Positions 47,499 through 64,000 of a DNA stretch of 64,000 nt are shown here, piece after piece (position 1 is the first letter of the stretch; the number at the start of each line of letters is the position of its first letter). Source of the DNA: Billgrantia campisalis (GTDB lineage Bacteria; Pseudomonadota; Gammaproteobacteria; Pseudomonadales; Halomonadaceae). The notes under the pieces were generated by a model. It saw only the letters and a program-made list of their open reading frames with translations, did not search any database and was not told the origin of the DNA. The stretch lies in assembly GCF_022341425.1 (NCBI RefSeq), contig NZ_JABFUC010000015.1, positions 62,001-126,000 on the forward strand, written 5' to 3'. The translations under genes were made by a program, and so were the position numbers.

Positions 47499-48707
47499 TT
47501 AGCCGGCCGGCCAGCGTCCGCTGTCCATCCACTGTTTGAGGCTGGCCGGCAGCCGGGTGAGTTCGTCCCCCTCCAGCACCGCGACCCCCAGGCGCTGGGC
47601 GCGGCGCAGATGGGATTCGCGTTGCCCGGCACTGCCCAGGGGGGCGTCGCTCAGCACTACCCGGGTGGCCCCGAGCTCGTCGCCGTGCTCGGCCAGTTCA
47701 TAGAGGCGGTGCAGCACCGCGGCATCATCGTCGGGGCGTGCCAGGCATTCGAGGATCAGCGGCCGGTTGCGGTGCACGGCGAGGCAGTCGAACACCGTGG
47801 GTTCGTCGTTGTGGCGTCCGCTGAGATCGAGCACATGGGCCTCGCCGCAGGCCCTCTGCAGCCCGGCGTCCCGGGCGCTTAGCCAGGCGTATTCGCCGAG
47901 CCAGCCCCCCGTCAGGTAGTCGGCCGCCGCCGGGGTGGCCACGCTCAGTGTCCGTGGCTGCTGCTGGGACCAGCCGATCAGCCCCGCCTCGCTGAGCCGC
48001 TGCAGGGCGTCGGTCTCGGGAAAGGGCGGGGTGTGGGTGAGCAGGTGCGATGGGTCGGCGGCCCTCCCGGCGGCTTCCGGGGAGGGCGCGAGCAGCCCCT
48101 TGAGCTCCACGAGCAGCGCTGCGATGCGCGGCGCCTGATGGGCCAGGAAGCGGGTCAGGGGCCGGCGTGAAATCACTGTCTCCCGCCACTCGGCGCCGTC
48201 CGAGGCCGCCCGGATGCGCTTGCGGCCATGGGCCTGAAGGATAAGATCGGCGGTCAGCACCGCGGTGATCGGCAGGCGCTGCAGGGAGTGGGGATCGAGT
48301 GTCGGGCCGAGGCGGTGGATGACGTCGCGTTCGGGGTCGAGGTGCAGACAGTCGGCGTCACAGTGGCGCATGGCCTGCTGGAACAGCAGGGCGGTCAAGC
48401 GGTCGCCGCCGGCCAGGTCGCAGGTGACCTCGAGTGGCGGCACCTCGCGCTGCTGACTGGCCAGCTCGTCGGCAAGCGCCAGGGCGAGCTCGGCGATGCG
48501 CTGCGGGTCGCCTTGGGGCAGGCCTTCATGCAGGCGGATCTCGTGGGCCTCGGGCAGTTCGTGCTGCAACAGGATGCGTAGCCGCTCGGCGGCCTGCTGC
48601 CCGCGTCGGCAGGCCACCAGCACGATTCGTTCGGGTCGCAGCTGAAGCAGCGGAATCAGGGTACGCTCGGGATGCTCGTTGACCAGCGCGATGTGCAGGT
48701 GGGACAT
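47499..48707 (-). CDS. CARF-DUF1887 nuclease-like protein (Card1/Can2 family) with altered active site
   Basis: This 402-residue protein has an N-terminal CARF-like Rossmann domain (MSHLHIALVNEHPERTLIPL, then the DLAGGDRLTALLFQQAM ligand loop near residue 110), a middle winged-helix region, and a C-terminal DUF1887 nuclease domain that starts GGWLGEYAWL. In Card1/Can2 proteins the active site reads D...ExK. Here D307 is present (FDCLAV) and E320 is in LILECLAR, but the lysine is L322 (codon 47742-47744). It may have lost or altered cleavage while keeping cyclic oligoadenylate binding. It lies next to the type III-A locus and is a likely accessory protein of it. Confidence 0.82.
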   Translation of the reverse strand: MSHLHIALVNEHPERTLIPLLQLRPERIVLVACRRGQQAAERLRILLQHELPEAHEIRLHEGLPQGDPQRIAELALALADELASQQREVPPLEVTCDLAGGDRLTALLFQQAMRHCDADCLHLDPERDVIHRLGPTLDPHSLQRLPITAVLTADLILQAHGRKRIRAASDGAEWRETVISRRPLTRFLAHQAPRIAALLVELKGLLAPSPEAAGRAADPSHLLTHTPPFPETDALQRLSEAGLIGWSQQQPRTLSVATPAAADYLTGGWLGEYAWLSARDAGLQRACGEAHVLDLSGRHNDEPTVFDCLAVHRNRPLILECLARPDDDAAVLHRLYELAEHGDELGATRVVLSDAPLGSAGQRESHLRRAQRLGVAVLEGDELTRLPASLKQWMDSGRWPAG

Positions 48708-48930: not shown

Positions 48931-48952
48931 GGTCGGGCATGTGGAGGAAAAC

Positions 48953-49234
48953 ATGAACATCGTCTCCTTTACCGAGGCACGCAACAGTCTCAAGCGAGTG
49001 CTGGATCAGGTGGTCAGTGACGCCGACTGCACGGTGATCACTCGGCGCGATGCCGAGGATGCGGTGGTGATGTCGCTGGAGTACTACAACAGCCTGATGG
49101 AGACCGTGCATCTGCTGAAGTCCCCGGCCAACGCCGAGCACCTGGCGCGCTCCATCGAGCAGTATCGCCAGGGGCAGGCGAAACAGCGTGATCCGATCGA
49201 CGACCCGGGCCCCGAGAAGGCTCTCGATGACTAG
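48953..49234 (+). CDS. yefM: YefM-type antitoxin (Phd/YefM family)
   Basis: This 93-residue antitoxin starts [20 protein letters not shown] and has the [24 protein letters not shown] core of YefM. The N-terminal part binds DNA and the C-terminal part blocks the toxin. A strong ribosome binding site GGAGG lies before the ATG at 48953. The end overlaps the toxin start by eight bases. It is on the opposite strand to cas6 and the CARF protein and stands between them. Confidence 0.92.
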
Positions 49235-49493
49235 GCTGCTGGCCTGGACCGACGAGGCGTGGCGGGATTACCTCTACTGGCAGGGACAGGATCGCAAGAC
49301 GCTGAGGCGCATCAACAAGCTGATCCAGGAGACCCAGCGCACCCCTTTCGAAGGCATCGGCAAGCCCGAACCCCTCAAGGAGAACCTCTCGGGCTTTTGG
49401 TCGCGGCGCATCGATGAGTCCCACCGGCTGGTCTATGCCGTGGACGAGGGCTACCTCACCATCCTCTCCTGCCGCTACCACTACCTGAAGTAG
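49227..49493 (+). CDS. yoeB: YoeB-type ribosome-dependent mRNA endonuclease toxin
   Basis: This 88-residue toxin has the YoeB pattern [47 protein letters not shown], then [10 protein letters not shown] and the catalytic C-terminal CRYHYLK with its His-Tyr pair. E. coli YoeB has the same length (84) and end. It cleaves mRNA at the ribosome when the antitoxin is lost. The start at 49227 overlaps the yefM stop region. Confidence 0.94.
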
Positions 49494-49528: not shown

Positions 49529-50479
49529 TTACGACTGATGTAATCGATAGCGCCCCAGGCCGAAGCTCGTATTCTTTCCCAGGTGCGTGTATTGGCCCAG
49601 CCACAGCCAGGGAAGCCAGTGGGCTAGCTGACCATGCAGCGTCAAGGTTCCGACTAGGCCATCCATGGCCATGCGCTGCTGTTGTCGGCTGGAGTAGCGC
49701 TGCCATTGATAGAGCCGGGTGCTGGCATCGAGCCGAATGCTTTCCAGGCTTGCGTCTTTCGGTGCTGCTGGCAACGCGCCCAGATAACAGTGGGCATACA
49801 GCGCTACCTTACGCTCCAGCGTGCGCAGCACGATAGATGCAGTGAGCTGCCAGCTGTTGCATAGCTTGCCGTGGTACTGAAGTCGCGTGGGAGTGTCCAA
49901 CTGCAGGGTGACCGTGCTTGTCTCGGCGGGAATCTCCGGCAGTGCCAGCCGGGCACGGTGCGGAGTGACGCTACCGGTGTCGGGAGTGAACACCGTCAGC
50001 CAGTCGTCGGGTGTCCGTTCCCACTCGACAGCGGTCAGCGTGGCTCGGGCTCGGCCCTTGCCCAGGCCGTGCCAGGCGGCACGCTGCCAAGCAAGGATCA
50101 GCGTTCCCAACTGCGCCTGTGCCGGGCCGAACAGCACCATCTCGAAGTGGAAACGTTCGCCGGGGGCCAAGGTTGTGGGTGTGCCCAGCGGCACCTCGAT
50201 AACATAAGGTGCGGGTACCTCGGGAAAGCGTGCGGCCAGCTCCGTCGAGGGGCGTGGTTGAAACAGAGCGGGGTATTGGCAGGCTTCCAGCAGTGGGCAG
50301 CCCTCGCAGGTGTTTTGACGCGTGATGCAGCTGACCGAGCGCAGCCCATGGCCTAAGCTGCCGCGCAGCATGGAGCCGGGATAGGCGGGAAGATGCAGGG
50401 GAGCCTCGGCCTGCAGGGTAAAACGGTAGCGGGCGAGCGGCAGCGTATCGCCCGGGCGGCACAGCGGTAGATCATTCAT
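49529..50479 (-). CDS. cas6: CRISPR pre-crRNA endoribonuclease Cas6
   Basis: This 316-residue RAMP protein belongs to the Cas6 family (two ferredoxin-like domains). It carries YRFTLQAEAPLHLPAYPGSMLRG at the N-terminus, a Cys-rich stretch (CITRQNTCEGCPLLEAC), and the glycine-rich C-terminal LGKNTSFGLGRYRL. It should cut the repeat RNA at the base of its hairpin, leaving the 8-nt handle ATTGAGAC. The start overlaps the csm5 end by eight bases, so it is the last gene of the minus-strand csm operon. Confidence 0.9.
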   Translation of the reverse strand: MNDLPLCRPGDTLPLARYRFTLQAEAPLHLPAYPGSMLRGSLGHGLRSVSCITRQNTCEGCPLLEACQYPALFQPRPSTELAARFPEVPAPYVIEVPLGTPTTLAPGERFHFEMVLFGPAQAQLGTLILAWQRAAWHGLGKGRARATLTAVEWERTPDDWLTVFTPDTGSVTPHRARLALPEIPAETSTVTLQLDTPTRLQYHGKLCNSWQLTASIVLRTLERKVALYAHCYLGALPAAPKDASLESIRLDASTRLYQWQRYSSRQQQRMAMDGLVGTLTLHGQLAHWLPWLWLGQYTHLGKNTSFGLGRYRLHQS

Positions 50480-52166
50480 TCAGCGGTTTCCACAGTTCCT
50501 TGAGCTTCTTGTTTTTCTTGCGATCCACGCCCCATAGCTGGCAGCAGGCACTGAATAGTTCGCGGGTTTCGGTCTTCAACTCGGGGTCACCCTCTTCGAC
50601 TACCTTGGCGACGGCCTGGTTGAGTAGCGTGCGCAGTTCGCCCGAGACATCGCTGATCTTGAAGCGCTGGTCGTTGGCCAGCTTCTCGCGCAACGCTTCC
50701 ACCGCTCGTCCGGCTGGCGTGAGCCGCTCCATACGCTCGGCTTTCTCGCGCTGGGCACGTTCCATCTCGGCCAGTTCGGCCTCCTGCTGGCGTTGCCTGG
50801 CCTGCGCCTCCTTTCGAGCCGCACGCAGCTCGGCCAGTTCGTCCCGGCAGGCGTCAAACTCCGCTGCCCAGCCGACGCTGGTCGCCTTGAGCGGCTCCAG
50901 GGCGGATAGGTTCAGCGGTTCATCGGCGTTTTCCACCAGCACCCAGCCAAGGGGCAGACCGAACTGTCCCTGACGTGGGGAAGGGGTTGCAAGCCAGGCG
51001 GTACTCGGTGTGTCGGAAAATTTGCGCCTTTTACCTAGTGATACATCGATATCGCGCAGCCCATCCCAGGTCTTGCTCTCGGCACCGGCGTAGTGGCCCA
51101 GGCGCATCAGAGCAGCCCGGCCCTCTCGCAGCGGCGATTCCAGCTCGCGCAGCAGGCGGCGCATCAGCGTGATCCAGCTGGTTTCCGGCGCGCAGTAGCA
51201 GCCCTGGTGGACATCCTGGCGCTCCAGGCGGGCCAGCTCGGCCTCTAGCTGGGGCAGTGCAAAGCGATTCTGCGCCACAAAGACCTGCTCGAGTGTCAGC
51301 TCCGCCAACTGCCGGTCGCCTTTGCCGCCACGCTTCTCGAGGAAGTCGCGGCGAACCGTCAACCGGGTATCGAAGGCACGCACCGCAAAGGGCGGGATGA
51401 CTTCCAGCGGCACGTGGTTCTTGTAGAAACTATTTCTGCTGTCGCGGGCGTTGGCCTCGTCGGGCGTTTTGCGAGACACCTGTTGGGCAAACAGGATCTG
51501 TCGTGGCAGCGCGCGGCTGGTCATGGCATCGGCCAGTTTGATACCGGCAAAGGGGTCCTGATCGATATGCTTGTCATCGTAGTTCAGAAGCCCCTGCTCA
51601 ATCATGCGTGCCTTCTTGTTCCTGTCAACACGCTGTTTCTCGAGTGCTTGGCTTTGCGCTCGAGCGCCAAGATTGGTAATGGCCGTGCGCAGCACGCCCT
51701 TGAGGGTCGAGCCGGGAATCACCGGCTGCTGTGTCAGCGGCGAGGTCAGGGTGGCGGCAACCTCCAGCCGGGCGCGTTCGTTTGGCTTGGTGCCGATGCC
51801 CAGCTTGTCCCGGTAGTAGCGCTCGAACTGGGGGGTGATCGGACGAACATCCCGGGCCGCACTCTTGAGCGTCTCTCGATGTTCATGAAAGAAGCGCTGC
51901 AGCCGCACAAAGGCGCGCTGCACCTGTGCCGCCTGGCGCTTGCGATCGCCGCCGTCTTCCAGCAGTGGTACGTCATCGCAGCATTGTTCCAGCGCTTGGC
52001 GTTGCCCAGCGTTGAGCAGCGACATCATGGCCAGGGGGTCGAGCTCGAAGAGCCGCCCGTCATCGACCACATAGCGGGTGGCGTCGATATCCTGGCCGGT
52101 GCCGATATGTACCGGCGCCAGGGTGGTTAGCCGCAGGGCATAGTGTTGGGTGTCGCGTTCCGTCAT
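50472..52166 (-). CDS. csm5: Csm5, type III-A RAMP protein with C-terminal coiled-coil extension
   Basis: This 564-residue protein begins YALRLTTLAPVHIGTGQDID, the standard start of Csm5, and has the IPGSTLKGVLRTAI glycine-rich segment near residue 155. The RAMP part appears to end with FGLPLGWVLV near residue 411. It is followed by about 150 more residues: a charged coiled coil (about 437-481, rich in Glu, Arg, Gln) and a helical end. Typical Csm5 is 340-400 residues, so this extension is unusual. It caps the Csm complex at the crRNA 3' end. It overlaps csm4 by one base. Confidence 0.88.
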   Translation of the reverse strand: MTERDTQHYALRLTTLAPVHIGTGQDIDATRYVVDDGRLFELDPLAMMSLLNAGQRQALEQCCDDVPLLEDGGDRKRQAAQVQRAFVRLQRFFHEHRETLKSAARDVRPITPQFERYYRDKLGIGTKPNERARLEVAATLTSPLTQQPVIPGSTLKGVLRTAITNLGARAQSQALEKQRVDRNKKARMIEQGLLNYDDKHIDQDPFAGIKLADAMTSRALPRQILFAQQVSRKTPDEANARDSRNSFYKNHVPLEVIPPFAVRAFDTRLTVRRDFLEKRGGKGDRQLAELTLEQVFVAQNRFALPQLEAELARLERQDVHQGCYCAPETSWITLMRRLLRELESPLREGRAALMRLGHYAGAESKTWDGLRDIDVSLGKRRKFSDTPSTAWLATPSPRQGQFGLPLGWVLVENADEPLNLSALEPLKATSVGWAAEFDACRDELAELRAARKEAQARQRQQEAELAEMERAQREKAERMERLTPAGRAVEALREKLANDQRFKISDVSGELRTLLNQAVAKVVEEGDPELKTETRELFSACCQLWGVDRKKNKKLKELWKPLNE

Positions 52167-53143
52167 CAGGCCACCTCCTTGTCGAGTGAGGCGCCGGCGC
52201 TGACCGGCACAGCCGGCGCATAGCCCTGATGCACTGTCTCGGGCAGGGCGCGGGAAAGCTCGCCGTTGCCACCCAGGCCAGTGCCCACCCAGGTAAGCGC
52301 GGCAGGTGCATGGCGGGTCATCAGGGCGCCGGTCTGTGCCATGATCACCGGGTTCTTGTAGGGTTGCCCCGACACCGCCGCCAGGTCGCCATGGCGACCA
52401 AAGCGCACGTGCAGGCTGTAGAAGCTCTCTCTTGCCACCCAGGCGTCATTTTCTTCCGTATCGGCTGCTGGCACGCAGGGTCCCAGGGTCAGCCAATGGC
52501 GAGCGGAAGCTGGCTCAGGCAGCGCTTCGCAGCTTACTACGCGAAACTTGCCAAGCCCGGTGGTGGCCTCCTTGCCGAAACCCTGCTGGCCGCAGCGAGC
52601 CATCAGCTGCTTCAGGGTGGCGACCTCCAGGCGATCATCCAGCACGACATAGAGATCCAGGCGGGTACCGGGGGCATAGTGGCTCACCGAGCGGCTGTAG
52701 GGGGCGAACTGCCCGGTGCCAGTGGTATTGGTCAGCCGATTGATGGTGTTGTGGCTCTGCTCCTCCAGGTGAGGGGCTGGCACCTTGCCATCATCTTGGT
52801 GGCCGCACGCGACCAGATGCTGGTGCCAGGTCTCCAGCGGCTCGCCCGATTTCGATTCCGGCAACCACTGCCGACGCTTGGCCGCTTTGCGGTTGCTCGC
52901 ATCGGCCATATTGAAGCCGATCAGGTGGGCCGGCAGCGTGGGGCGGGGGAGAAAACCGTGGGGCAGCGCGTCGGAAACCACGAGAAAGGGGCGCCCCTTG
53001 CCATAGCCCGCCAGGCACGCCGTTAGGGTTTCGAGGCCGTTCAGGTGGCGCAGTGTCCAGCAAAGTTGGCCAAACAGCGTGTCGCCCTTCAGCGGTGTGG
53101 CGAATGCGGTCAAGGGTTCGATGGTAAGGCGATAGCGGGACAT
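52166..53143 (-). CDS. csm4: Csm4, type III-A RAMP protein
   Basis: This 325-residue Csm4 binds the 5' handle of crRNA and contacts Cas10. N-terminal YRLTIEPLTAFATPLKGDTLFGQLCW and the following PFLVSDALP-like region (RPFLVVSDALPHGFLPRP) are typical. A glycine-rich loop near residue 190 (CGQQGFGKEATTGLGKFRV) fits the RAMP G-loop. It is preceded by csm3 after 47 bases and followed directly by csm5. Confidence 0.9.
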   Translation of the reverse strand: MSRYRLTIEPLTAFATPLKGDTLFGQLCWTLRHLNGLETLTACLAGYGKGRPFLVVSDALPHGFLPRPTLPAHLIGFNMADASNRKAAKRRQWLPESKSGEPLETWHQHLVACGHQDDGKVPAPHLEEQSHNTINRLTNTTGTGQFAPYSRSVSHYAPGTRLDLYVVLDDRLEVATLKQLMARCGQQGFGKEATTGLGKFRVVSCEALPEPASARHWLTLGPCVPAADTEENDAWVARESFYSLHVRFGRHGDLAAVSGQPYKNPVIMAQTGALMTRHAPAALTWVGTGLGGNGELSRALPETVHQGYAPAVPVSAGASLDKEVA

Positions 53144-53190
53144 GGCGGTTCCTTGTCAGGCGGTGGCAAGCATGGCGGTGGTGCGCCGGT

Positions 53191-53910
53191 TCAGGTGGCG
53201 CTCAGCGCCTCGCGCAGGCGCGGGCAGAGATTGGTATCGCCCTGCTGAAGGCGGGAGAAGCGCACCTTGCCATAGCCACGGCTGCCGCTGCCGCCCAGGC
53301 CGTCCAGCTCCAGCAGGGCCAGGCCGCGCAGCAGAAGGTCGAGCAGAGCGTCATCGTCATCGGTCAAACGCTTGAAGGTCAGGCGGAAGTCGAAGCGTGC
53401 GCCGGCCGGTACCCGCTCGATAAAGCGCGGGTTCTGCGCCACCCCGCGAATGCGGTCGATGCTGTTCTCGCTCTTCTCCTCGGTGAGCGGCTGGCGCCGC
53501 TCGGCCCAGTCGATCTCTTCAAGCCATGAGGAACAGAGTTGGCAGTCCCAGAAGGCAAGCCGTGTGGGGCCCAGCGCCAGCGCTTCATCCATATCGAGTT
53601 TGGCGTCGCCGCTGGTGCCGAACAGCTGTACCACTCGCTTCGCCATGGCGGTATCTTCGGCCTGGCTGGCCTGTTCCCAGCTCACCGGGCCGCCGTTGCT
53701 TGCTACCACGGCACCCGCCTGCCACTCCAGCAGGCTGCGGACCTTGCCCTTGAGTGAGGAGCCGGGAATATAGGGCAGCTCGGTTAGGGGATGTTTGACC
53801 ACCGGGCTGTCGATGCCGCCGATGCGCATGCCGGCGCTGCCCGCGCCGATATGCAGGCCGGTCACCACCTCAAGCGTCCCCTCCAGAATGTCTATAGCTT
53901 CCAGTTTCAT
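53191..53910 (-). CDS. csm3: Csm3, backbone RAMP nuclease of the Csm complex
   Basis: This 239-residue Csm3 forms the helical backbone and cuts target RNA at 6-nt intervals. GLHIGAGSAGMRIGGIDSPV contains the catalytic Asp (D34 counted from this start, close to D32/D33 of characterised Csm3), and YIPGSSLKGKVRSLLEWQAG follows. The ATG at 53910 is preferred because AAGGAG lies nine bases upstream and it gives the usual N-terminus; an earlier ATG at 53931 has no ribosome binding site. The C-terminal glycine loop LDGLGGSGSRGYGKVRF is intact, so target RNA cleavage should be active. Confidence 0.92.
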   Translation of the reverse strand: MKLEAIDILEGTLEVVTGLHIGAGSAGMRIGGIDSPVVKHPLTELPYIPGSSLKGKVRSLLEWQAGAVVASNGGPVSWEQASQAEDTAMAKRVVQLFGTSGDAKLDMDEALALGPTRLAFWDCQLCSSWLEEIDWAERRQPLTEEKSENSIDRIRGVAQNPRFIERVPAGARFDFRLTFKRLTDDDDALLDLLLRGLALLELDGLGGSGSRGYGKVRFSRLQQGDTNLCPRLREALSAT

Positions 53911-53946
53911 ATCCTTAATCTCCTTGGCCATGGCATGTGATGGTGT

Positions 53947-54324
53947 TCAGCGGCGCGACTTTGCCTGGGCTTCCTTGAGCTTGCGAAAGCCGATGGTGGC
54001 TTCCAGGAAATGCTTGCAGCGGGTCAGGTGCTCAAGCGATTCAATCTGGCGAATCAGCTCCACAAAGGCGTTGTAGAACACTTCATCGACATGCTGGCGC
54101 CCATGGGCATAGGCCACCTGGGCATTGAGCATCTTGACCAGCGGCTTGATCTCTTCCCACTTTTCCGGCTGCTGGCGGGCCTGGGTCTCCAGGCGGACCA
54201 GTTCATCATAGAAGCGCCGAAGCTGGCTCGATTCCGGCTTGCGAAACATGCCGGCGAACTGCTCGGCATTTTTGTCATAGAGCTCGGCGCTGGGGTTGCG
54301 CAGATCGAAAGGCGTGTCGCTCAT
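53947..54324 (-). CDS. csm2: Csm2, small subunit of the Csm complex
   Basis: This 125-residue all-helical protein matches Csm2: YDKNAEQFAGMFRKPESSQLRRFYDEL, then IKPLVKMLNAQVAYAHGR and FLEATIGFRKLKEAQ. It forms the inner filament that lies along the crRNA-target duplex. It sits between cas10 and csm3 as in canonical III-A operons. No unusual features are seen. Confidence 0.9.
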   Translation of the reverse strand: MSDTPFDLRNPSAELYDKNAEQFAGMFRKPESSQLRRFYDELVRLETQARQQPEKWEEIKPLVKMLNAQVAYAHGRQHVDEVFYNAFVELIRQIESLEHLTRCKHFLEATIGFRKLKEAQAKSRR

Positions 54325-54359
54325 CTGGTCTCTCCCGGTGGCATTGAGAAAAAGCTGGC

Positions 54360-57047
54360 TCAGCGCAGCTGATAGAGCAGGTGTTGTATGGCAATCTGGA
54401 AGCGTTGACGGTGCTGAGTGATGCCCTGGGCAATCGGCGACAGCACATCGTCACACGCCTGGCGTTGGCGCTCAGCATAGGCGTCGCGCGTTTCGCCAGG
54501 ACGTTTCGAAAGCTTATCGATCACGTTGCGCTGGGTGCGGTAGCTCAGATAGCTGCGCCACAGCCCCGCCTCTGGGCGTACTTGGGCTTCGCTTGCCATC
54601 TGGGACAGCTCCAGCAGGCCATAGAGGTAGCCGGTGGAAAGCGGTACCGCGGCCTCGCGACGTTGGGCCAACAGGCGCTCGGAAGTGTGCAGCAGCTCAG
54701 CCAGCACCGGCCAGCCAAGGGTCTGGCCGTATAGCGTGACGTGATCCTTGCCGGGCTCGGCCTTGGCCAGCTCCAGTGCCTGCTCGCTCTGCTCGGCCAG
54801 CGCCTGAATGGGCGCGCCGGGTTTGACCTGCAGCAGGCCGGCGCTGAAGTGCAGCCCGGGGTTGTGTGCGGCAAAGCGCTCGAACTGCTGGCGCATCTGC
54901 AGCGCCAGGCGGGTTGTCTGCTTCCAGGGACCGATCAGGAAGAAGTCGTCGCCGCCGGCAAACACCGTATAGGTGTTCGGCGCGTGGCGGGCACACCAGG
55001 CCGGCAGCCAGAGGCTATAGAAGAAGTGCATCTGGCGGGAGAGTGCCGCCATGCGAGCAAAGCTGGGCTGGGCCAGACCGCGCTCGAACAACAGCCCCAG
55101 GTCATCCACGTCGCCCTTGAGGATATGCAGGGCGCGTTGGCCAACCCAGTGGTCCTCTTTGAGCAGTGGGCCGCGGTCCTCGCAGGCCAGGTGCTCCAGC
55201 GTCTTGATCTTGCCGGGCGCTATTTCATCGAGCGGAGCATGGTCGCCGTAGCGCTGCTGCTCGTAGCCATCGGGTGAGCCGAACAGCGGCACATAGGCGT
55301 TGATAAAGCGCCGTGCATAGCCATGGAACAGGCTGGTGTCGTCGAGGGTGGGCAGTGAAATATCCCAGCAGCGCACCAGTTCGCCCTGCTTGGCCAGGGC
55401 GCCGAACTGGCCGCTGGCCTCGCCCGGGCCGGTAAAGCCGACGCCATAGCCGAAAATGGCCAGCGTCAAGCCGTCATGCAGCGGCTGGCCACGCGTAATG
55501 ACCAGCCGCTGATGGCGAGGCTGTGCCAGCCACTCACCGATCTGGACCTGGTCGCGGGCCAACCGGCTGACCCAGGGGCTCTGCGTGTTATCGCGCTCCA
55601 GCCGCACCTCGGCCGGTGAGCGGCCGTCCAGGGCGCAGATGCCTTTCTCTTGATCAAAGCGACTTAAAAAGTTGCTCTGAATGATGGGCACTTCCGGGTC
55701 GGTCAGCGACAGCCGCTGGTATTTGGCGGTCTCCAGTGCCGCAAACAGGCGCTGCATCAGGTGGCGAAAAGGCGGTTCTTGCCCGCCTTTTCCAGCCAGG
55801 AAGTCGTTAGCGCAGGCTTCTGTGGTGGCCAGGCCGATGCCGGAAAGGTGGAAACTGTGCTGGCCAAACCAGTCTTGGCACTCTGTCGCCACCCGGGCAA
55901 TGGCGGCCTGGGTGCGCGGTGTGTTGGGCGCCACCAGCATGAACTTGCCGGCGGCGTTGGTAATTTGGCTGGTTGCGGGCAGCGCCAGAGCTTCGAGCAG
56001 GCGCAGGGCGGCCAGTTCGCACAGCAGCGACACATAGAATGACTTACCACGCAGCAGCTTGTTGGCCCTCTTGCGAGTCTCGCCACCAGCGCTGAAGATG
56101 AAGTCCTGAATGCCGAAGAAATCACCCTGAATCAGCAGGAACTTGGCCTCGTCCCAGTCTTGGCGATATTGCATGGCCTTGCGCACCTGTTCTGGATCGT
56201 CGCCTCGCTCATGGTGATAGCGCCATAGCGCCGTGGCCATGGCTGCCACCGTATGGCTATGGTCGTAGAGCGACACATCCGGGCGGCTGTTGAACGCTGT
56301 TGCCGCGGGGATGGACTGAGCGGTTTCCATCCATAGACTATCGAAATGGTCCAGCCACAGTGGCCACTGTTTGCGGTGGCTGGGTGGGATCCGCTCCAGC
56401 TTGTGGCAGAACTGTTCCCATAGCGCCAGGTACTCGGCCTGGGCCGCACCGTTGTTGTCCGGCTCGGCCTGATCCCGCGCTACGGGAAACAGGCTTTCGG
56501 GATTCAGCGGCGCCAGCGGGTAGCGATACTTCAACTGGTCGATGGCACTGGCTTGCTCTTCCCGGTAAAGCGGCTCGAAGAGTGAGAGCAGCCGGGTGCG
56601 GTAGTGGTTGCGCTCCTCGGCCTTGTTGTATTCGGCAAAGGTTTCACGCTCGAAGCCGGAGGCGATGCGATCCGCCGTGGCGATCACCCACTGCAGCAGG
56701 GTATCGGGCTTGTGATGCATGGCTGCGGCGTTGAGCAGCGAGTCATCCGCTCCCTGTGACTTCCAGCTCGCAAAGGGCGCTACGCTGTCGCCGGTAAGGT
56801 GGGGTAGGTGGCGCTCGATACGATCCAGACACAGCGCCGTATAGGCGGCATGTTTGTGGCTGTGAAAGCCCTTCTCCTTGTTGAAGGGGCAGTAAAGATG
56901 AACATTGGCGTCGATGTGCGACTTGGGCGCTTCCACCCGTGCACGTTCGCCGAGCTTGCCCAGGTCGTGCACCAGGCCGGCAAAGGCCACTCGGCTGCTG
57001 GCCTGCAGCAGCGCCTGATCAACCGTTTGAGAATCGTTGGCCTGCAT
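54360..57047 (-). CDS. cas10: Cas10/Csm1 with HD nuclease and GGDD cyclase motifs
   Basis: This 895-residue signature protein of type III-A has an N-terminal HD domain (FAGLVHDLGKLGERA, HD at 27-28) for single-stranded DNA cleavage. The Palm domain carries GGDD at residues 698-701 (FAGGDDFFLIG) for synthesis of cyclic oligoadenylates on target RNA binding. Both active sites are intact. The first Palm/zinc region includes FIFSAGGETRKRANKLLRGKSF. The ATG at 57045-57047 overlaps the ring nuclease stop by one base (TGATG); a TTG one codon earlier is less likely. Confidence 0.95.
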   Translation of the reverse strand: MQANDSQTVDQALLQASSRVAFAGLVHDLGKLGERARVEAPKSHIDANVHLYCPFNKEKGFHSHKHAAYTALCLDRIERHLPHLTGDSVAPFASWKSQGADDSLLNAAAMHHKPDTLLQWVIATADRIASGFERETFAEYNKAEERNHYRTRLLSLFEPLYREEQASAIDQLKYRYPLAPLNPESLFPVARDQAEPDNNGAAQAEYLALWEQFCHKLERIPPSHRKQWPLWLDHFDSLWMETAQSIPAATAFNSRPDVSLYDHSHTVAAMATALWRYHHERGDDPEQVRKAMQYRQDWDEAKFLLIQGDFFGIQDFIFSAGGETRKRANKLLRGKSFYVSLLCELAALRLLEALALPATSQITNAAGKFMLVAPNTPRTQAAIARVATECQDWFGQHSFHLSGIGLATTEACANDFLAGKGGQEPPFRHLMQRLFAALETAKYQRLSLTDPEVPIIQSNFLSRFDQEKGICALDGRSPAEVRLERDNTQSPWVSRLARDQVQIGEWLAQPRHQRLVITRGQPLHDGLTLAIFGYGVGFTGPGEASGQFGALAKQGELVRCWDISLPTLDDTSLFHGYARRFINAYVPLFGSPDGYEQQRYGDHAPLDEIAPGKIKTLEHLACEDRGPLLKEDHWVGQRALHILKGDVDDLGLLFERGLAQPSFARMAALSRQMHFFYSLWLPAWCARHAPNTYTVFAGGDDFFLIGPWKQTTRLALQMRQQFERFAAHNPGLHFSAGLLQVKPGAPIQALAEQSEQALELAKAEPGKDHVTLYGQTLGWPVLAELLHTSERLLAQRREAAVPLSTGYLYGLLELSQMASEAQVRPEAGLWRSYLSYRTQRNVIDKLSKRPGETRDAYAERQRQACDDVLSPIAQGITQHRQRFQIAIQHLLYQLR

Positions 57048-58216
57048 CAAGTGGCTCCTCCCTGCGATACGTGAGGGGTAGGTGAAGAATCAAGTGGCCC
57101 GTCCAGTGGATGATGCGTGAGTGTGATCTGCTCCGGGCATAGCGTCAGCGCCCAGCCGCTATGTCGCTGGTGGCGTACGTTAGCGATCATGAAAGGTTCT
57201 GCCAGGCGGCGGCCCAGGCCCAGCTTCAGCTTGCGGTGCAGGGTGGAGCGGCGTGTGCGCAGCGGGCCCAGGTCCAGGCCATCCTCCAGGGCAGCCAGGC
57301 TGCGGGGAGAAAGGCGGTCTTCCAGGTCGAAGTGGCGAATCACTCCGAGCATCTCATTGGCCAGCGCCCGGTCGGGGTGGCCTTCCACCGGCGGGGTTAG
57401 CGGCTCTGCGCGCTGCTGACAGCGGTGCACGAACCACAGGTAAAGCATCCATTCCATGGGCTCAAGCGTGACGCTGATACCGTTGCAGATCAGCCGAGGG
57501 GTACTTACGGAAACCCTTAGCTGAGCTGGTTGCGTTGCTGCGTTTAGCAGTGCCACTGCGTCGCTGAAGCTGAGCTGCTGCACCAGCGCCTCTTGTGGCA
57601 GCTCATCGCGCAGACGCACAAAGGGGATGCGTGCCAGCGTGACCTCGGCGCGGCGAGTATCCAGCGGTTTGCCATCGCGGGTATAGATCACCTGAGACTC
57701 CGGGGTGGGGTAGAAGAACTCAGGGTGCGATTCGAAGCGTTCGCTGACCAGCACATGGGAGAGCGTGTCCTGCTCTCGGCCATATAGCGACAGTGCATAG
57801 CCAATATAGAAGCCCATTGTCTTGCGGCCTCCTGCCAGAGAGACATGCAGAGCGGTATCCGGGCGTGAGGTGAAATCGCGTACGCGCTGAGTGATGAAGT
57901 TGGCTGCGGCGGCGTTATCGTCTGGAGTGCGAATATCTTCTAGTGGTCGGCCCTGGCTGTCAGGAATGATATGCAGGTGGGTGGTGGAGAAGCGAATGTC
58001 GGGTAGGCCATAGTCGGCGATCAGCTTGGGTAGGCGGGCGTTGGCGCCGGTGAGCAGGGTTAGTTCGGCACGCTGCGCGCCTTCCAGCGTGGTAATCAGA
58101 TGCAGCTCGGCGCCCACCAGACTGGTGGACGACTCGCGATGGAATGCGTAGAGCGTTTCCGTTACGACCTGCGGTGACAGCCCGGCCACCATCAGAAAAA
58201 TCGGCTGCTGTGCCAT
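57047..58216 (-). CDS. CRISPR-associated CARF ring nuclease of the NE0113 (Csm6-like) family
   Basis: This 389-residue protein has a CARF domain of the Cas_NE0113 family. It starts FLMVAGLSPQVVTETLYAFH, continues LITTLEGAQRAELTLL, and has the ligand-binding LHVSLAGGRKTMGFYIGYAL and LSHVLVSERFESHPEFFYP. The C-terminal 160 residues form a separate domain (LEPMEWMLYLWFVHRCQQ, then LGPLRTRRSTLHRKLKLGLG), probably winged helix, without the RxxxxH HEPN motif of true Csm6. It likely binds and degrades cyclic oligoadenylates. A GGAG ribosome binding site precedes the ATG. It is the first gene of the interference operon. Confidence 0.85.
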   Translation of the reverse strand: MAQQPIFLMVAGLSPQVVTETLYAFHRESSTSLVGAELHLITTLEGAQRAELTLLTGANARLPKLIADYGLPDIRFSTTHLHIIPDSQGRPLEDIRTPDDNAAAANFITQRVRDFTSRPDTALHVSLAGGRKTMGFYIGYALSLYGREQDTLSHVLVSERFESHPEFFYPTPESQVIYTRDGKPLDTRRAEVTLARIPFVRLRDELPQEALVQQLSFSDAVALLNAATQPAQLRVSVSTPRLICNGISVTLEPMEWMLYLWFVHRCQQRAEPLTPPVEGHPDRALANEMLGVIRHFDLEDRLSPRSLAALEDGLDLGPLRTRRSTLHRKLKLGLGRRLAEPFMIANVRHQRHSGWALTLCPEQITLTHHPLDGPLDSSPTPHVSQGGAT

Positions 58217-58544: not shown

Positions 58545-58820
58545 ATGCGAAAGCTCTACCTCGCCTGTTACGACATCACTTGTCCCAAGCGGCTGCGTAT
58601 GTGCCTCAAGGTGCTCAAAGGGTATGCCAGCGGGCGGCAGTACTCCTGCTTCGAGTGCTATCTCACGCACCGCGAGCGGGAAGAGCTGCTGGCCACCATG
58701 CGCGACCTGACTGAGGGTGACGACGCCTTTGCACTGCTCTGCCTGCAGCGCCAGCGCACCATTCATCCGCTGGGGCAGGGCGTGGCGCCGCTTGATGAAG
58801 CCTTCATGTGGGTGGGGTGA
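58545..58820 (+). CDS. cas2: Cas2 (first copy)
   Basis: This 91-residue Cas2 has the ferredoxin-like start KLYLACYDITCPKRLRMCLKVL with the conserved Asp (YDI) and the SCFECYLTHREREEL segment. Cas2 bridges two Cas1 dimers in the spacer integration complex. The start at 58545 has a GGAGGGAG ribosome binding site; a longer open frame upstream is not used. It is followed by cas1 after 11 bases. Confidence 0.9.
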   Translation: MRKLYLACYDITCPKRLRMCLKVLKGYASGRQYSCFECYLTHREREELLATMRDLTEGDDAFALLCLQRQRTIHPLGQGVAPLDEAFMWVG

Positions 58821-58831
58821 GGGGAGCAACG

Positions 58832-59770
58832 ATGAGCCGACATCTGTATCTGGACCATGCCAATACGCAGCTGGCGCTGGACGGGCGAAGCCTGACAGTG
58901 AAAGTGCCCGAGCGGCCGGTGGCCCATGTGCCACTGCATCTCTTGGAACGTGTGACCATCGTGGCGGATATCGAGGTTTCCACCCGCCTGTTGCACCGGC
59001 TTTCCAGCGCCGGAATCACAATCACCTTGTTGTCGCCGCGAAGCAAGAGCCAGGCCACCGAGTGTCTGACACCGATTCACGGCAACCATGGGCGGCGCTT
59101 GCAGCAGTATGCGCTGGTGTTGGATGACGCACGCTGCCTGACGTGGGCTCGGCTGCTGGTGCGCTGGAAGGTCAAGGCGCAACGCCATCAGTTACTACGC
59201 TTTGCGGCGCGACGTGGCGCCGAGGCGGGTCGCTGTCGCCGGGCGGAGCGAGAGCTGGCATTGCTTCAAAAGCAGGTATCGGATGCTGATGCGCAGCAGC
59301 TGCTGGGCCTGGAGGGTAGCGCTGCACGCGCCTACTTTGGCGTTTTCCAACGCCTGGTACCCGCCAGCCTTGGGTTCAGCGGACGTCGGAAGCGGCCCGC
59401 TCCGGACCCGGTGAATGCGCTGCTGTCGCTCACCTACAGCATGCTGACCAGCGAGTGCAGCCGGGCACTGCAGCTGGCCGGGCTGGACCCAGCCTACGGG
59501 GTTTACCACCGCGTGGGTTACGGTAGGCCTTCGCTGGCCTGCGATCTCGTGGAACTGGTGAGGCCGCAAGCTGACCACTTCGTGTGGCGCTTGGTGGCGA
59601 GGCAGGATCTGCGGGCCCACCACTTCACGCGCCAGTTGGGTGCCTGTCTGCTCAAGAAAGAGGGAAGGGGAATCTACTTTCCCTGCTATGAGGTGCGATT
59701 GGCGCCGTGCCGACGTCATATCCATAGGTTGGCGCGGCGGCTCTGCCAGCGCTGGGAACAGGAGGGCTAG
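58832..59770 (+). CDS. cas1: Cas1 integrase (catalytic)
   Basis: This 312-residue Cas1 has the full active site: E161 in LEGSAARAYFG, H226 in YGVYHRVGYGRPSL, D238 and E241 in CDLVELVRP. The N-terminal beta domain (residues 4-70) and the all-alpha domain are both complete. It integrates new spacers at the leader end of the array. The ATG at 58832 follows GGGGAGC; eight extra codons upstream are possible. The next gene starts two codons after its stop (TAGCATG), a tight operon. Confidence 0.94.
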   Translation: MSRHLYLDHANTQLALDGRSLTVKVPERPVAHVPLHLLERVTIVADIEVSTRLLHRLSSAGITITLLSPRSKSQATECLTPIHGNHGRRLQQYALVLDDARCLTWARLLVRWKVKAQRHQLLRFAARRGAEAGRCRRAERELALLQKQVSDADAQQLLGLEGSAARAYFGVFQRLVPASLGFSGRRKRPAPDPVNALLSLTYSMLTSECSRALQLAGLDPAYGVYHRVGYGRPSLACDLVELVRPQADHFVWRLVARQDLRAHHFTRQLGACLLKKEGRGIYFPCYEVRLAPCRRHIHRLARRLCQRWEQEG

Positions 59771-59771
59771 C

Positions 59772-60485
59772 ATGAGTACGGATACGGCCATTATGGCGAC
59801 ACTATTCATTCATGGCCGCCAGCTGCAGCAGTGGCGGCTGGTCGGCAATACCCTTTCGGTGCGTATGCAGCGGCGTGCCGAGCAGCTGTTTCCGCTCAGC
59901 CGGCTGCGTCGAGTGATCTTTATCGAGCGTGCCCCCGGCGACATGCGCTACCTCTGGAAACTGCTCGAGATGGGAGTGGGCGTGACCTTCATGGGCAGCC
60001 GAGGCCGCCTGATCGGCGCCTTCAATGCGCCCGCAATAGAGAGCAGCCCGCTTCCCCTACTGGCAGAACGGTTGATGCACAACAGTCACCTTCGCGACTG
60101 GCTGGCGGACTGGCAGGATGATCAAGTGCGGCACCTCGAGCGAGATATCACCCTGCAGCTGCGTGAGCAGGCAGGGCGCTGCCGCCATTCGCTGAGCGAG
60201 GATGCCCGTGACTGGCTTGATGGCCTGACAGGGGCCCTGCTCAATGATGTTGCTGCCGAGTATCAACTGGATAGCGCCCAACGGCCGGCGCGCTGTCTGA
60301 TCACCACGCTGCACCGGATGCTGTTGCCCTGGGTAATGGTGCAGGGGCGCTGGTGGCTGCGACACCGGCCGGCACCCGACGTGCAGCAGTGCTGCCAGGC
60401 CTTCGAGGCGTTCAGCGAGGGCCTGGAGAACCATATGCAGCGCTTGCTGCTGCAGCTGGAATTGAGGGCGGATGAATGGCTGTAA
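59772..60485 (+). CDS. Cas1-like protein lacking catalytic motifs (Cas1 prime)
   Basis: This 237-residue protein resembles the N-terminal half of Cas1: TLFIHGRQLQQWRLVGNTLS, LFPLSRLRRVIFIERAPG, then LWKLLEMGVGVTFMGSRGRL. It aligns with the neighbouring Cas1 (HLYLDHANTQLALDGRSLTV, LHLLERVTIVAD, LLHRLSSAGITITLLSPRSK). A helical domain follows. The ExxxAR-YFG and HxxxYGRPSL-xxDLVE motifs are missing and the protein is about 75 residues shorter. It may be a structural partner in a Cas1-Cas1 prime heterocomplex. It lies between cas1 and the second cas2, and its stop overlaps the cas2 start by ten bases. Confidence 0.8.
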   Translation: MSTDTAIMATLFIHGRQLQQWRLVGNTLSVRMQRRAEQLFPLSRLRRVIFIERAPGDMRYLWKLLEMGVGVTFMGSRGRLIGAFNAPAIESSPLPLLAERLMHNSHLRDWLADWQDDQVRHLERDITLQLREQAGRCRHSLSEDARDWLDGLTGALLNDVAAEYQLDSAQRPARCLITTLHRMLLPWVMVQGRWWLRHRPAPDVQQCCQAFEAFSEGLENHMQRLLLQLELRADEWL

Positions 60486-60805
60486 CAGGGGTGAACTGGC
60501 TGGTATGTTACGACATCCGTGACTCGCGGCGGCTGCGTCGGGTCCACCGTTGCTGCCGCCACTGGGGCATGCCTTTGCAGCGTTCGGTCTTTGCCTGCGC
60601 ATTGAAAGCAGAAGATCTGGGTGTCATGATTGAAGAACTGAGAAGCCTGATGGATGAGGGTGAAGACGATGTGCGGCTTTATCCGATCGAGGATCTTGCC
60701 AATGCCATCATCCAGGGCACCACGCGGCTGCCGTTGATGGTAGAGTCATTGATCCGCATGCAGCAACAAGGCATTGTCGACGATGACAGAGAGCCCGAAG
60801 GCTAA
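60476..60805 (+). CDS. cas2: Cas2 (second copy)
   Basis: This 109-residue second Cas2 has WLVCYDIRDSRRLRRVHRCC with the conserved aspartate and MPLQRSVFACALKAEDLGVM. It differs strongly from the first Cas2 and is longer, with an acidic C-terminus. It starts inside the end of the Cas1-like gene, so translation is coupled. Its stop lies 111 bases before the first repeat, so it is the last gene before the leader. Confidence 0.9.
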   Translation: MAVTGVNWLVCYDIRDSRRLRRVHRCCRHWGMPLQRSVFACALKAEDLGVMIEELRSLMDEGEDDVRLYPIEDLANAIIQGTTRLPLMVESLIRMQQQGIVDDDREPEG

Positions 60806-60916
60806 GGCAGTTCACCGCTCTTTCACAATGCAGTGTACTGTAGGGTGGGTGACGGGCATCGTTGTGCTAAACCAAGCTGTAAACGGCTGCTGGCACTGGG
60901 CTTTTGGGGTGGAGCT
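60806..60916 (+). promoter_or_regulatory. CRISPR leader
   Basis: These 111 bases between cas2 and the first repeat should contain the array promoter and the integration-specifying leader. The array is read in the + direction: the repeat ends in ATTGAGAC, the usual 8-nt crRNA 5' handle, so new spacers should enter here. A TTTCAC hexamer at about 60820 and TACTGTA at about 60835 are possible promoter parts, weakly supported. Confidence 0.6.
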
Positions 60917-63900
60917 GTAAGAACACTTCCCTGGCATAGAAGGGATTGAGACGGGCGCTGTGTGTTTCCATTGGCGATGCCTGTCGTAAGAACACTTCCC
61001 TGGCATAGAAGGGATTGAGACCAATCACATCGTCTTGATCCGCGCTCGTCGTGCGTAAGAACACTTCCCTGGCATAGAAGGGATTGAGACATTGCAGTAC
61101 ACGCCGTAAAAACCGCCGGTCATCGGTAAGAACACTTCCCTGGCATAGAAGGGATTGAGACTCATGTTCTGACCTCGATTTCGACAACTTTGTTATGTAA
61201 GAACACTTCCCTGGCATAGAAGGGATTGAGACTTCACACAGCGGTCGACGCCGTTACCGTTAATGACGTAAGAACACTTCCCTGGCATAGAAGGGATTGA
61301 GACTTCGGGGAACGGGGGCGGTTCGCCGCCGCATACGTCGTAAGAACACTTCCCTGGCATAGAAGGGATTGAGACTGCGCTTCGGTGTTGGGGTCGTCAG
61401 GGTGAACAAGTAAGAACACTTCCCTGGCATAGAAGGGATTGAGACGTATAACATCGAACTGGTGCGGTATTTCAGTCGGGTAAGAACACTTCCCTGGCAT
61501 AGAAGGGATTGAGACTCGCCAGCCTGCGCGATGCTTTCCAGCAGTTCGGTAAGAACACTTCCCTGGCATAGAAGGGATTGAGACTTCACACAGCGGTCGA
61601 CGCCGTTACCGTTAATGACGTAAGAACACTTCCCTGGCATAGAAGGGATTGAGACCGTTACGCCGTGCGTACTGCCCGCGCCTTTAGCGTAAGAACACTT
61701 CCCTGGCATAGAAGGGATTGAGACGTCTTTTCCTTTTTCAGTAAGACGCGCGGCGATAGTAAGAACACTTCCCTGGCATAGAAGGGATTGAGACGTAGCA
61801 TAAATCCACGCCAAAAGCGCCATTACTGTGTAAGAACACTTCCCTGGCATAGAAGGGATTGAGACTTCCAGTGCGTCAAACGGTATCGTCACCGACATGC
61901 GTAAGAACACTTCCCTGGCATAGAAGGGATTGAGACGGGCGCGTGTGGCCGAAACAGGGCGCGCATACGGGTAAGAACACTTCCCTGGCATAGAAGGGAT
62001 TGAGACCCTCGCTGTACGTAAACACGAACACCCCAAACAGTAAGAACACTTCCCTGGCATAGAAGGGATTGAGACTAGCCCGAATCCTCCAATACGCGAA
62101 CGCCGGTCAAGTAAGAACACTTCCCTGGCATAGAAGGGATTGAGACCAGTGTCAGCGGCTTGCTCAGTTGCTTCGGTCAGTAAGAACACTTCCCTGGCAT
62201 AGAAGGGATTGAGACTTCGCGGTTCGGGCGCGAACGTCGGCAGCTTCAAGTAAGAACACTTCCCTGGCATAGAAGGGATTGAGACCAAAAAATTCGCCCG
62301 GCTCAACGGCCGGGCTTTCGTAAGAACACTTCCCTGGCATAGAAGGGATTGAGACGCCTTCTCTTCGTTCGGTACAAAACCGTACCCGGGTAAGAACACT
62401 TCCCTGGCATAGAAGGGATTGAGACCACTCTGACCCGTATCGTATAACGTAAACATCGTCGTAAGAACACTTCCCTGGCATAGAAGGGATTGAGACCCAT
62501 GTCGGCGTAGTCCTCCGTCCGCATGCTGATGTAAGAACACTTCCCTGGCATAGAAGGGATTGAGACTCAGAATGCCTAAGGAGGGGATGTATGGCGTTTA
62601 GTAAGAACACTTCCCTGGCATAGAAGGGATTGAGACTGTCGCATGGTCGTATCTCCCGTTATCAAATGCGTAAGAACACTTCCCTGGCATAGAAGGGATT
62701 GAGACCTTCCAGAATATCCCATTCTTCCTTTGAAACGCCGTAAGAACACTTCCCTGGCATAGAAGGGATTGAGACGTCGTATCTCCCGCCATTCAAAGGC
62801 CATAAGCATGGTAAGAACACTTCCCTGGCATAGAAGGGATTGAGACCAGACCCCACTTTCCGGTATGCAATCAGCCCCGTCGTAAGAACACTTCCCTGGC
62901 ATAGAAGGGATTGAGACAAGTCACGGCCCGCTATCAGCGCAAGTCGTTGGGTAAGAACACTTCCCTGGCATAGAAGGGATTGAGACTTACCTTGTGTGTA
63001 TGTATATAATATATCAGCTCGTAAGAACACTTCCCTGGCATAGAAGGGATTGAGACATTTAATTCTTCATCAAAACGTTCTTCCAGTTCGTAAGAACACT
63101 TCCCTGGCATAGAAGGGATTGAGACATAGGCGGATTGCCCGCTGCCGCCGACTACGCTGGTAAGAACACTTCCCTGGCATAGAAGGGATTGAGACGCAGC
63201 GCGCCAATTCCTCCGCCATGCGCGCTTGAGGTAAGAACACTTCCCTGGCATAGAAGGGATTGAGACAAGTCACGGCCCGCTATCAGCGCAAGTCGTTGGG
63301 TAAGAACACTTCCCTGGCATAGAAGGGATTGAGACTTACCTTGTGTGTATGTATATAATATATCAGCTCGTAAGAACACTTCCCTGGCATAGAAGGGATT
63401 GAGACATTTAATTCTTCATCAAAACGTTCTTCCAGTTCGTAAGAACACTTCCCTGGCATAGAAGGGATTGAGACATAGGCGGATTGCCCGCTGCCGCCGA
63501 CTACGCTGGTAAGAACACTTCCCTGGCATAGAAGGGATTGAGACGCAGCGCGCCAATTCCTCCGCCATGCGCGCTTGAGGTAAGAACACTTCCCTGGCAT
63601 AGAAGGGATTGAGACAGCAATGTTTTCATGTCAGCCGCCCTCGTCCAGTAAGAACACTTCCCTGGCATAGAAGGGATTGAGACTTCTCGTTGACTTCGAC
63701 AAGCCCATTCTTGACGAGTAAGAACACTTCCCTGGCATAGAAGGGATTGAGACACCGCGCGGCGCGCCGCTCCGCAAGGTATTCCGCGTAAGAACACTTC
63801 CCTGGCATAGAAGGGATTGAGACATCGGCAATAGTTTGCAATTCGAGTCTGACCCATCGTAAGAACACTTCCCTGGCATAGAAGGGATTGAGACGCAATA

Positions 63901-64000
63901 ATAAAGACCGCAATACCTATCCATCCTTTGTAAGAACACTTCCCTGGCATAGAAGGGATTGAGACGTGATGCTCGTCGCTCCTAGCGATAGTCACGGCCG
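60917..64000 (+). CRISPR. Type III-A CRISPR array, 44 repeats, continuing beyond the window
   Basis: There are forty-four identical 36-bp repeats (first at 60917-60952, last at 63930-63965). Each starts GTAAGAACACTTCCC and ends AGGGATTGAGAC, with an internal TCCCT/AGGGA stem and an 8-base loop. They enclose 43 spacers of 32-36 bp, plus 35 bases after the last repeat that reach the window end, probably a full spacer. No repeat is degenerate, so the distal end is not reached. Spacers 29-33 are repeated exactly as 34-38, and spacer 5 equals spacer 10, leaving 37 different spacers among the 43. Cas6 is expected to cut before the final ATTGAGAC. Confidence 0.99.
62882..63579 (+). repeat. Exact tandem duplication of five repeat-spacer units in the array
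   Basis: The block 62882-63230 (349 bases, five repeats and five spacers) is followed directly by an identical copy at 63231-63579. All five spacers are the same in order and sequence. The boundaries coincide with repeats, as expected for unequal recombination between repeats or slipped replication, not for five independent acquisitions. Confidence 0.98.

Follow-up and report, generated by a model that had tools for sequence, protein, structure and literature searches.

A four-gene CRISPR adaptation operon of Billgrantia campisalis with two Cas2 families and a degenerate Cas1 paralogue

The cas2-cas1-cas1'-cas2' operon and its products

The stretch of DNA analysed here (the window) comprises 64,000 nucleotides of the Billgrantia campisalis contig NZ_JABFUC010000015.1 (positions 62,001 to 126,000) and encodes, beside an array of clustered regularly interspaced short palindromic repeats (CRISPR), an adaptation operon of four genes on the + strand, cas2-cas1-cas1'-cas2' (Table 1), in which a single base separates cas1 from cas1' and the latter overlaps cas2' by 10 bases. 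An initial annotation of the sequence had proposed this operon, and its reading frames, coordinates and spacing were reproduced exactly; an open GTG at 58808 is an alternative start for cas1. Cas1 and both Cas2 proteins passed the Pfam cut-offs, Cas1' being the sole exception, and the whole genome holds a single Cas1 match (E <=1e-10) and two Cas2 matches (E <=0.001), all inside the operon. The search of genomes for a conserved gene order that had been proposed with the annotation was run, and the four-gene order was found in dozens of genomes, far beyond chance, which rules out a fortuitous or mis-annotated arrangement. With two genes of each kind, the operon is not a canonical adaptation module of one Cas1 and one Cas2; a reverse transcriptase-Cas1 (RT-Cas1) module is ruled out, since Cas1 has 312 amino acids and matches Cas_Cas1 alone in Pfam. 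A scan of the operon for promoters and terminators gave no signal above chance.

Cas1' is a true Cas1 paralogue and not an active Cas1. The AlphaFold (AF2) model of the window protein, built from an alignment of 68 family members (predicted local distance difference test, pLDDT, 94.4; predicted template modelling score, pTM, 0.90), consists of a beta-rich N-terminal and a helical C-terminal domain. Its best matches in the Protein Data Bank (PDB) are Cas1s, including T. maritima Cas1 (Foldseek E 3.5e-7), and the VIA comparisons with 7cr6_C and 4xtk_B aligned 226-227 residues within residues 8-237 (Z 18.2, root-mean-square deviation, rmsd, 3.2-3.3). The best 50 of the 121 structure matches with E <=0.001 are without exception Cas1, Cas1-Cas2 or casposase entries, counting 2yzs and 3god, which we take to be Cas1 structures, though their titles do not name Cas1. 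A fold outside the Cas1 family for 59772-60485, which the initial annotation had named as the result that would speak against it, is ruled out by these Foldseek and VIA matches. For a second member (L065; pLDDT 92.9, pTM 0.72), the 50 matches listed were likewise all Cas1-family entries, with Z up to 13.4 and an rmsd of about 9-15 in full-length rows and 3-4 in rows covering the helical domain only; the lower Z and the large full-length rmsd probably reflect a different predicted angle between the domains. Profile comparison by hhalign (68 Cas1' against 81 Cas1 sequences) gave E 4.9e-26 (global mode) and 5.8e-21 (local mode), and E 2.4e-12 with an earlier, smaller sequence set. The two-domain, Cas1-like identity first assigned to the protein is thus borne out by the model, the structure matches and the profiles.

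The window copy is itself diverged: it fits Pfam Cas_Cas1 in its N-terminal part only (E 0.0097, 15.5 bits against a cut-off of 22.3) and matches the PADLOC profile PDLC01185, named 'Cas1, diverged variant, second in the loci', weakly (E 3.1e-6, 25 bits). The Pfam cut-off is exceeded by the Cas1' of L065, L061 and L074, and 63 of the 68 Cas1' match PDLC01185, the best with E 6.7e-147. Searched alone against the sequences of solved structures, the window Cas1' did not match Cas1; neither its own sequence, in 57 other nearest-relative genomes (36 of the same genus), nor a peptide-pattern search of genome contigs retrieved relatives, the query being in both cases too diverged to reveal distant family members. 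The family was instead recovered with a family profile and the Cas1 alignment.

The catalytic Glu-His-Asp residues, which the initial annotation had described as intact in Cas1 and gone from Cas1', behave in the alignments as it had claimed. E161, H226 and D238 are invariant in all 81 aligned module Cas1s. When the 68 Cas1' are aligned with them, the helix bearing the catalytic Glu has no aligned column in Cas1', and the window copy has Q170 at the His position and T179 at the Asp position; an earlier, smaller alignment shifts the two positions slightly and still places neither His nor Asp there. A His was found in one of the 68 Cas1' by alignment column, in four by a first motif search and in seven by a looser one (which, as a control, finds 77 of the 81 Cas1), and the Asp is kept in 54 of the 68. 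The seven Cas1' with both His and Asp (L103:3779-4606, L105, L114, L122, L131, L133 and L134, all but one from records of Nitrospirota, Planctomycetota, Myxococcota and Bacillota) all fall in one subclade of ten; in six, a Glu lies three positions N-terminal to the aligned Tyr, possibly a displaced active-site Glu, and the seven may represent half-way forms of decay. These patterns suggest a stepwise decay, in which the Glu helix would have been lost first, the His next and the Asp last. In the N-terminal domain, 67 of the 68 Cas1' retain P34 and 61 retain R40, while R185, N195, R244, K276 and R279, invariant or nearly so in Cas1, are mostly lost.

Judged by their motifs, Cas2 and Cas2' are separate conserved families, the first characterized by Gln-Lys-Ser and a C-terminal Tyr-x-Gly and the second by Gln-Tyr-Ser-Val-Phe and Asp-Asp-x-Arg-x-Tyr. 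The window Cas2 (Y9 D10 ... Q32 x S34 ... E37, C-terminal W89-V-G) has drifted, with a Tyr replacing the Lys present in 98% of the family and a Trp replacing the C-terminal Tyr; the window Cas2' carries YDI...RRLRRVHR, QRSVF and DDVRLYP.

Table 1. Features of the adaptation operon and its surroundings in the window, and Cas1'-bearing loci of other genomes (L numbers, positions in their own records) in which one of the other genes is broken or not found.
Feature	Position	Strand	Basis or remark
cas2 (first Cas2 family, 91 aa)	58545..58820	+	Pfam CRISPR_Cas2 E 6.4e-10; family alignment n=80
cas1 (312 aa)	58832..59770	+	Pfam Cas_Cas1 E 4.1e-73; E161, H226, D238 intact
cas1' (237 aa), degenerate Cas1 paralogue	59772..60485	+	AF2 fold, structure match, hhalign, PADLOC PDLC01185
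cas2' (second Cas2 family, 109 aa)	60476..60805	+	Pfam E 7.7e-18; family alignment n=76
Presumed leader (111 bases) between cas2' and first repeat	60806..60916	+	Inferred from position and repeat orientation only
CRISPR array	60917..63965	+	44 repeats of 36 nt (GTAAGAACACTTCCCTGGCATAGAAGGGATTGAGAC); spacers about 33-36 nt, mostly 33-35; may extend beyond the window
cas10/csm1, csm2, csm3, csm4, csm5 (type III-A effector)	50472..57050	-	NCBIfam and other profile matches
NE0113-type CARF ring nuclease/Csm6-like protein, divergent to the module	57047..58216	-	NCBIfam TIGR02584 E 6.9e-74
cas6	49529..50479	-	Pfam E 2.6e-15; PADLOC Cas6 E 2.4e-94
L101	after 3251		Recognisable cas2', frame broken; cas1' present
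L117	after 3051		Recognisable cas2', frame broken, near contig end; cas1' present
L131	upstream of 4137		First cas2 not found; cas1, cas1', cas2' present

Distribution and loss of cas1'

Genome contigs were scanned with the Cas1 alignment and the best 80 of at least 574 loci were kept (the 80 nearest loci). These were picked by likeness to the Cas1s of Cas1'-bearing loci, so that the presence of cas1' in 69 of the 80 (68 recognised by a hidden Markov model, HMM, and L074) is not a prevalence. In L074, from a Pseudomonadales bin, a diverged Cas1' lies in one frame with Cas2', forming a natural fusion of 343 amino acids (L074:10927-11958). All four genes are open in 64 of the 69 loci; L071 and L095 are interrupted by a contig end, and L101, L117 and L131 are described in Table 1. 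The 11 other loci have cas2-cas1-cas2' without cas1'. Extra DNA is present within the module of at least four loci (L066, L087, L103 and L115), and in L066 a histidine-kinase-like frame (L066:3933-4715; Pfam HATPase_c E 3.7e-19, HisKA E 1.9e-9) stands between cas1 and cas1'. According to the sequence records, many of them metagenome bins, the Cas1'-bearing loci belong to Pseudomonadota, Nitrospirota, Acidobacteriota, Planctomycetota, Myxococcota and Bacillota.

Among 274 class genomes examined with the PADLOC profile, 16 carry the module, the window counted; among 398 genomes of the phylum, the profile detected it in 6 at E 1e-5. Contig ends truncate L044 and L054. Five more class genomes were matched via another Cas1 only, some of them fused and one (L049) cut by a contig end. 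In a contrast set of 30 loci kept from the class sample with the Cas1 Pfam model, the four-gene set occurs in four, the window among them, whereas in 25 the surrounding 1.5 kb or so contains no cas1' and no more than one Cas2; L165 alone has two Cas2s without an intact cas1'. A plasmid collection searched with the Cas1' of L083 gave no match. Taken across these sequence collections, the module is of a conserved and widespread kind.

In a tree of 108 Cas1 rows, the module Cas1s are split from the ordinary Cas1s (Shimodaira-Hasegawa-like approximate likelihood ratio test, SH-aLRT, 97, quick method); L049, taken as outgroup, falls among the module Cas1s, and the window Cas1 lies on a long branch (1.9), its placement being unsure. 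The absence of cas1' requires about five changes, in a clade of eight loci and in L063, L093, L127 and L165, all of which fall nested within Cas1'-bearing parts of the tree. This nesting suggests loss, although the count of changes alone cannot separate gain from loss, and a remnant also points to loss, since L165:2471-2650, between cas1 and cas2', holds a short piece that fits the Cas1' profile at its beginning (10.7 bits). The gene seems, on this tree, to have been lost about five times, both Cas2s being usually retained.

The ratio of nonsynonymous to synonymous substitution rates (dN/dS) was computable for 13 of 15 hand-picked close pairs, all relatives of the window copy, which share members and of which some have saturated dS; it ranged from 0.04 to 0.58 for cas1' and exceeded that of cas1 in 12 of the 13. 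These ratios indicate that Cas1' is under purifying selection in the relatives and evolves faster than Cas1. Being selected in this way and seemingly lost about five times, Cas1' is useful yet dispensable.

A candidate heteromeric integrase and its alternatives

Known Cas1-Cas2 integrases are near-symmetric and built with a single kind of Cas1, not every copy of which is catalytic. The canonical integrase has four Cas1 around two Cas2 and, in the I-F integrase, the repeat channel is walled by inactive Cas1 and has active Cas1 at its ends (available portions of PMC9048733 and PMC12259127, respectively). We lean, with a confidence slightly above even, towards a single heteromeric spacer integrase with Cas2 and Cas2' at its core, to which Cas1' would belong as a specialised, catalytically inactive protomer. 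The products of the four genes would assemble together, with Cas1 as the active protomers and Cas2 and Cas2' as a heterodimeric core; Cas1', a Cas1 duplicate that would have shed first the Glu helix and later, in most members, the His, would provide the non-catalytic protomers, and the division of labour between active and inactive Cas1 would be fixed at the gene level. By analogy, a Cas1' that keeps the fold and drops the chemistry fits the inactive place of an I-F-like integrase. The asymmetric or heteromeric integrase put forward in the initial annotation is therefore, in our view, a good inference, and the module suggests a memory-writing machine made of unlike parts with separate jobs.

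Several observations weigh against this arrangement. Cas1 homodimers are equally conceivable, and DNA holding by Cas1' is assumed, since most of the other invariant residues of the Cas1 active-site region are gone from it. Not every member is provably dead, as seven Cas1' retain His and Asp, six of them with a Glu nearby. The initial annotation had regarded a gene absent or broken in relatives in which acquisition works as evidence against its reading; this was partly borne out, as about five losses are inferred and one locus keeps a short remnant. All 11 Cas1'-less loci among the 80 still have detectable repeats, so that CRISPR persists without Cas1', arrays being no proof of continuing uptake.

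Type III guides must match one strand of an RNA. If the integrase were asymmetric by genetic design, with unlike half-sites through which the complex itself fixes the prespacer end that goes leader-side, it would set spacer orientation without a protospacer adjacent motif (PAM), which a type III system could exploit. We advance this extension tentatively and regard it as doubtful. Direct uptake by type III systems is given as PAM-independent in all tested systems in the available part of PMC9048733.

Alternatively, the integrase could be a normal Cas1-Cas2 hexamer, assisted or regulated by Cas1' without the latter being a stable subunit of it; Cas1' might, for instance, capture prespacers, protect ends or act as a competitor, binding Cas1 via its N-terminal domain. 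The loci in which cas1' is missing while the remaining genes stay, and its higher dN/dS relative to cas1 in nearly all pairs, fit such a role; however, Cas1' retains the entire Cas1 architecture and not just a binding domain, it is fused in frame to Cas2' at L074, and its gene adjoins or overlaps the integrase genes on either side, which makes this explanation rather unlikely.

It is improbable that Cas1' is a largely functionless duplicate in decay, preserved only by its place in the operon and by translational coupling. The seemingly successive losses of Glu, His and Asp, the inferred gene losses with their short remnant and the weak family-profile match of the window copy would all be expected of such a duplicate, but all 13 computable dN/dS values are below 0.6 (in relatives, the window copy having no close one), two N-terminal residues are near invariant, and cas1' occurs in records of six phyla. 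The aligned Cas1' copies were collected as open frames, and their openness therefore says nothing on function.

The initial annotation had further suggested that each Cas1 might have its own Cas2. This pairing is not supported, since both Cas2s stay in the 11 Cas1'-less loci (the cas2' frame being intact in ten and apparently broken in L093) and no special link of distance exists between Cas1' and Cas2'. Over 64 modules, raw distances, which are weak evidence either way, gave partial correlations of Cas1' with Cas1 of 0.38 (bootstrap range 0.25-0.47), with Cas2 of 0.24 and with Cas2' of -0.11 (-0.21 to 0.01), and, for near pairs only, of 0.21, 0.28 and 0.21, respectively. Of the 69 Cas1'-bearing loci, 67 retain the C-terminal Tyr of the first Cas2 and 64 its C-terminal Gly. 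Both residues are missing from all eight loci of the old Cas1'-less clade, whereas the four single-loss loci keep the Tyr; this hints, from what is one evolutionary event, that the tail of the first Cas2 may touch Cas1'. The fusion at L074 speaks the other way, for a Cas1'-Cas2' pairing. Two separate complexes with different jobs, Cas1 with Cas2 and Cas1' with Cas2', would agree with that fusion, with the gene order cas2-cas1 and cas1'-cas2' and with L131, where the first cas2 was not found, but are very unlikely given that Cas1' has no active site, that Cas2' outlasts it, that the overall Cas1'-Cas2' correlation is not positive, though that of near pairs is, and that the Cas2 tail follows the presence of Cas1'.

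The heteromeric integrase proposed here would share with the canonical one a Cas1 with Glu-His-Asp, a Cas2, an adjoining array and the Cas1 fold of Cas1', and would add to it a second, degenerate Cas1 and two Cas2 families. The module had already been noticed by annotators. The PADLOC profile PDLC01185 shares with Cas1' the second Cas1 position in the locus and the profile match, and consists of a name only, silent on catalysis, on the two Cas2s and on function. The available text of PMC6119699 reports 'two copies of cas1/cas2' for the III-A locus of Methylobacter sp. KS41 and likewise for Acidithiobacillus ferrivorans YL15; the former (L083) carries the four-gene module, whose second Cas1 and its active site are not analysed in that text. 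Vestigial Cas1-solo proteins are also Cas1 homologues with non-conserved catalytic residues, and stand alone, whereas Cas1' sits inside a Cas1-Cas2 operon beside arrays (available text of PMC9755687). In the open-licence PubMed Central (PMC) literature searched, the module is uncharacterised and no functional study of Cas1' was found, the papers behind the PADLOC profile, which may describe Cas1', lying outside that search. Were the idle Cas1 encoded by a separate, decayed gene and the Cas2s of two kinds, every position of the integrase could be mutated independently, and such a module would make the choice of orientation by the integrase testable.

The array, effector genes and neighbouring genes

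The window array contains a tandem duplication of about five repeat-spacer units, 300 bases being exactly repeated 349 bases further on (62882-63181 and 63231-63530), and a second near-copy (98%; 61192-61303 and 61544-61655). Its spacers gave no match in a phage collection. Repeats were detected at 43 of the 80 nearest loci, with a main repeat of 36-38 nt carrying GGGATT near its 3' end (in either orientation) in 41 of them and partial repeats only in L075 and L125.

On the strand opposite to the operon, the type III-A effector genes were identified from Csm1 (E 4.7e-192), Csm2 (E 1.9e-16) and Csm3 (E 8.7e-67) in NCBIfam and from Csm4 (E 5.8e-29); the Csm5 match (E 2e-6) is below the cut-off (27.5 against 38.3 bits), and the identity of csm5 rests partly on position. 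The module is not tied to one effector type, III-A being present at some loci and III-B at others: Csm-like genes were found in 14 of the 80 flanks, and the nine GGDD proteins tested at other loci all resemble Cas10 of III-B much more closely than that of III-A.

Within the type III locus of the window, 47499-48707 encodes a Card1-like CARF-PDDEXK nuclease (Pfam Card1_endonuc E 1.6e-9; PADLOC E 4.5e-40), a second signalling effector beside the NE0113-type protein. Between this gene and cas6, a YefM-like antitoxin and a YoeB-like toxin are encoded on the + strand (48941-49493; Pfam E 3.6e-23 and 6.9e-42, respectively).

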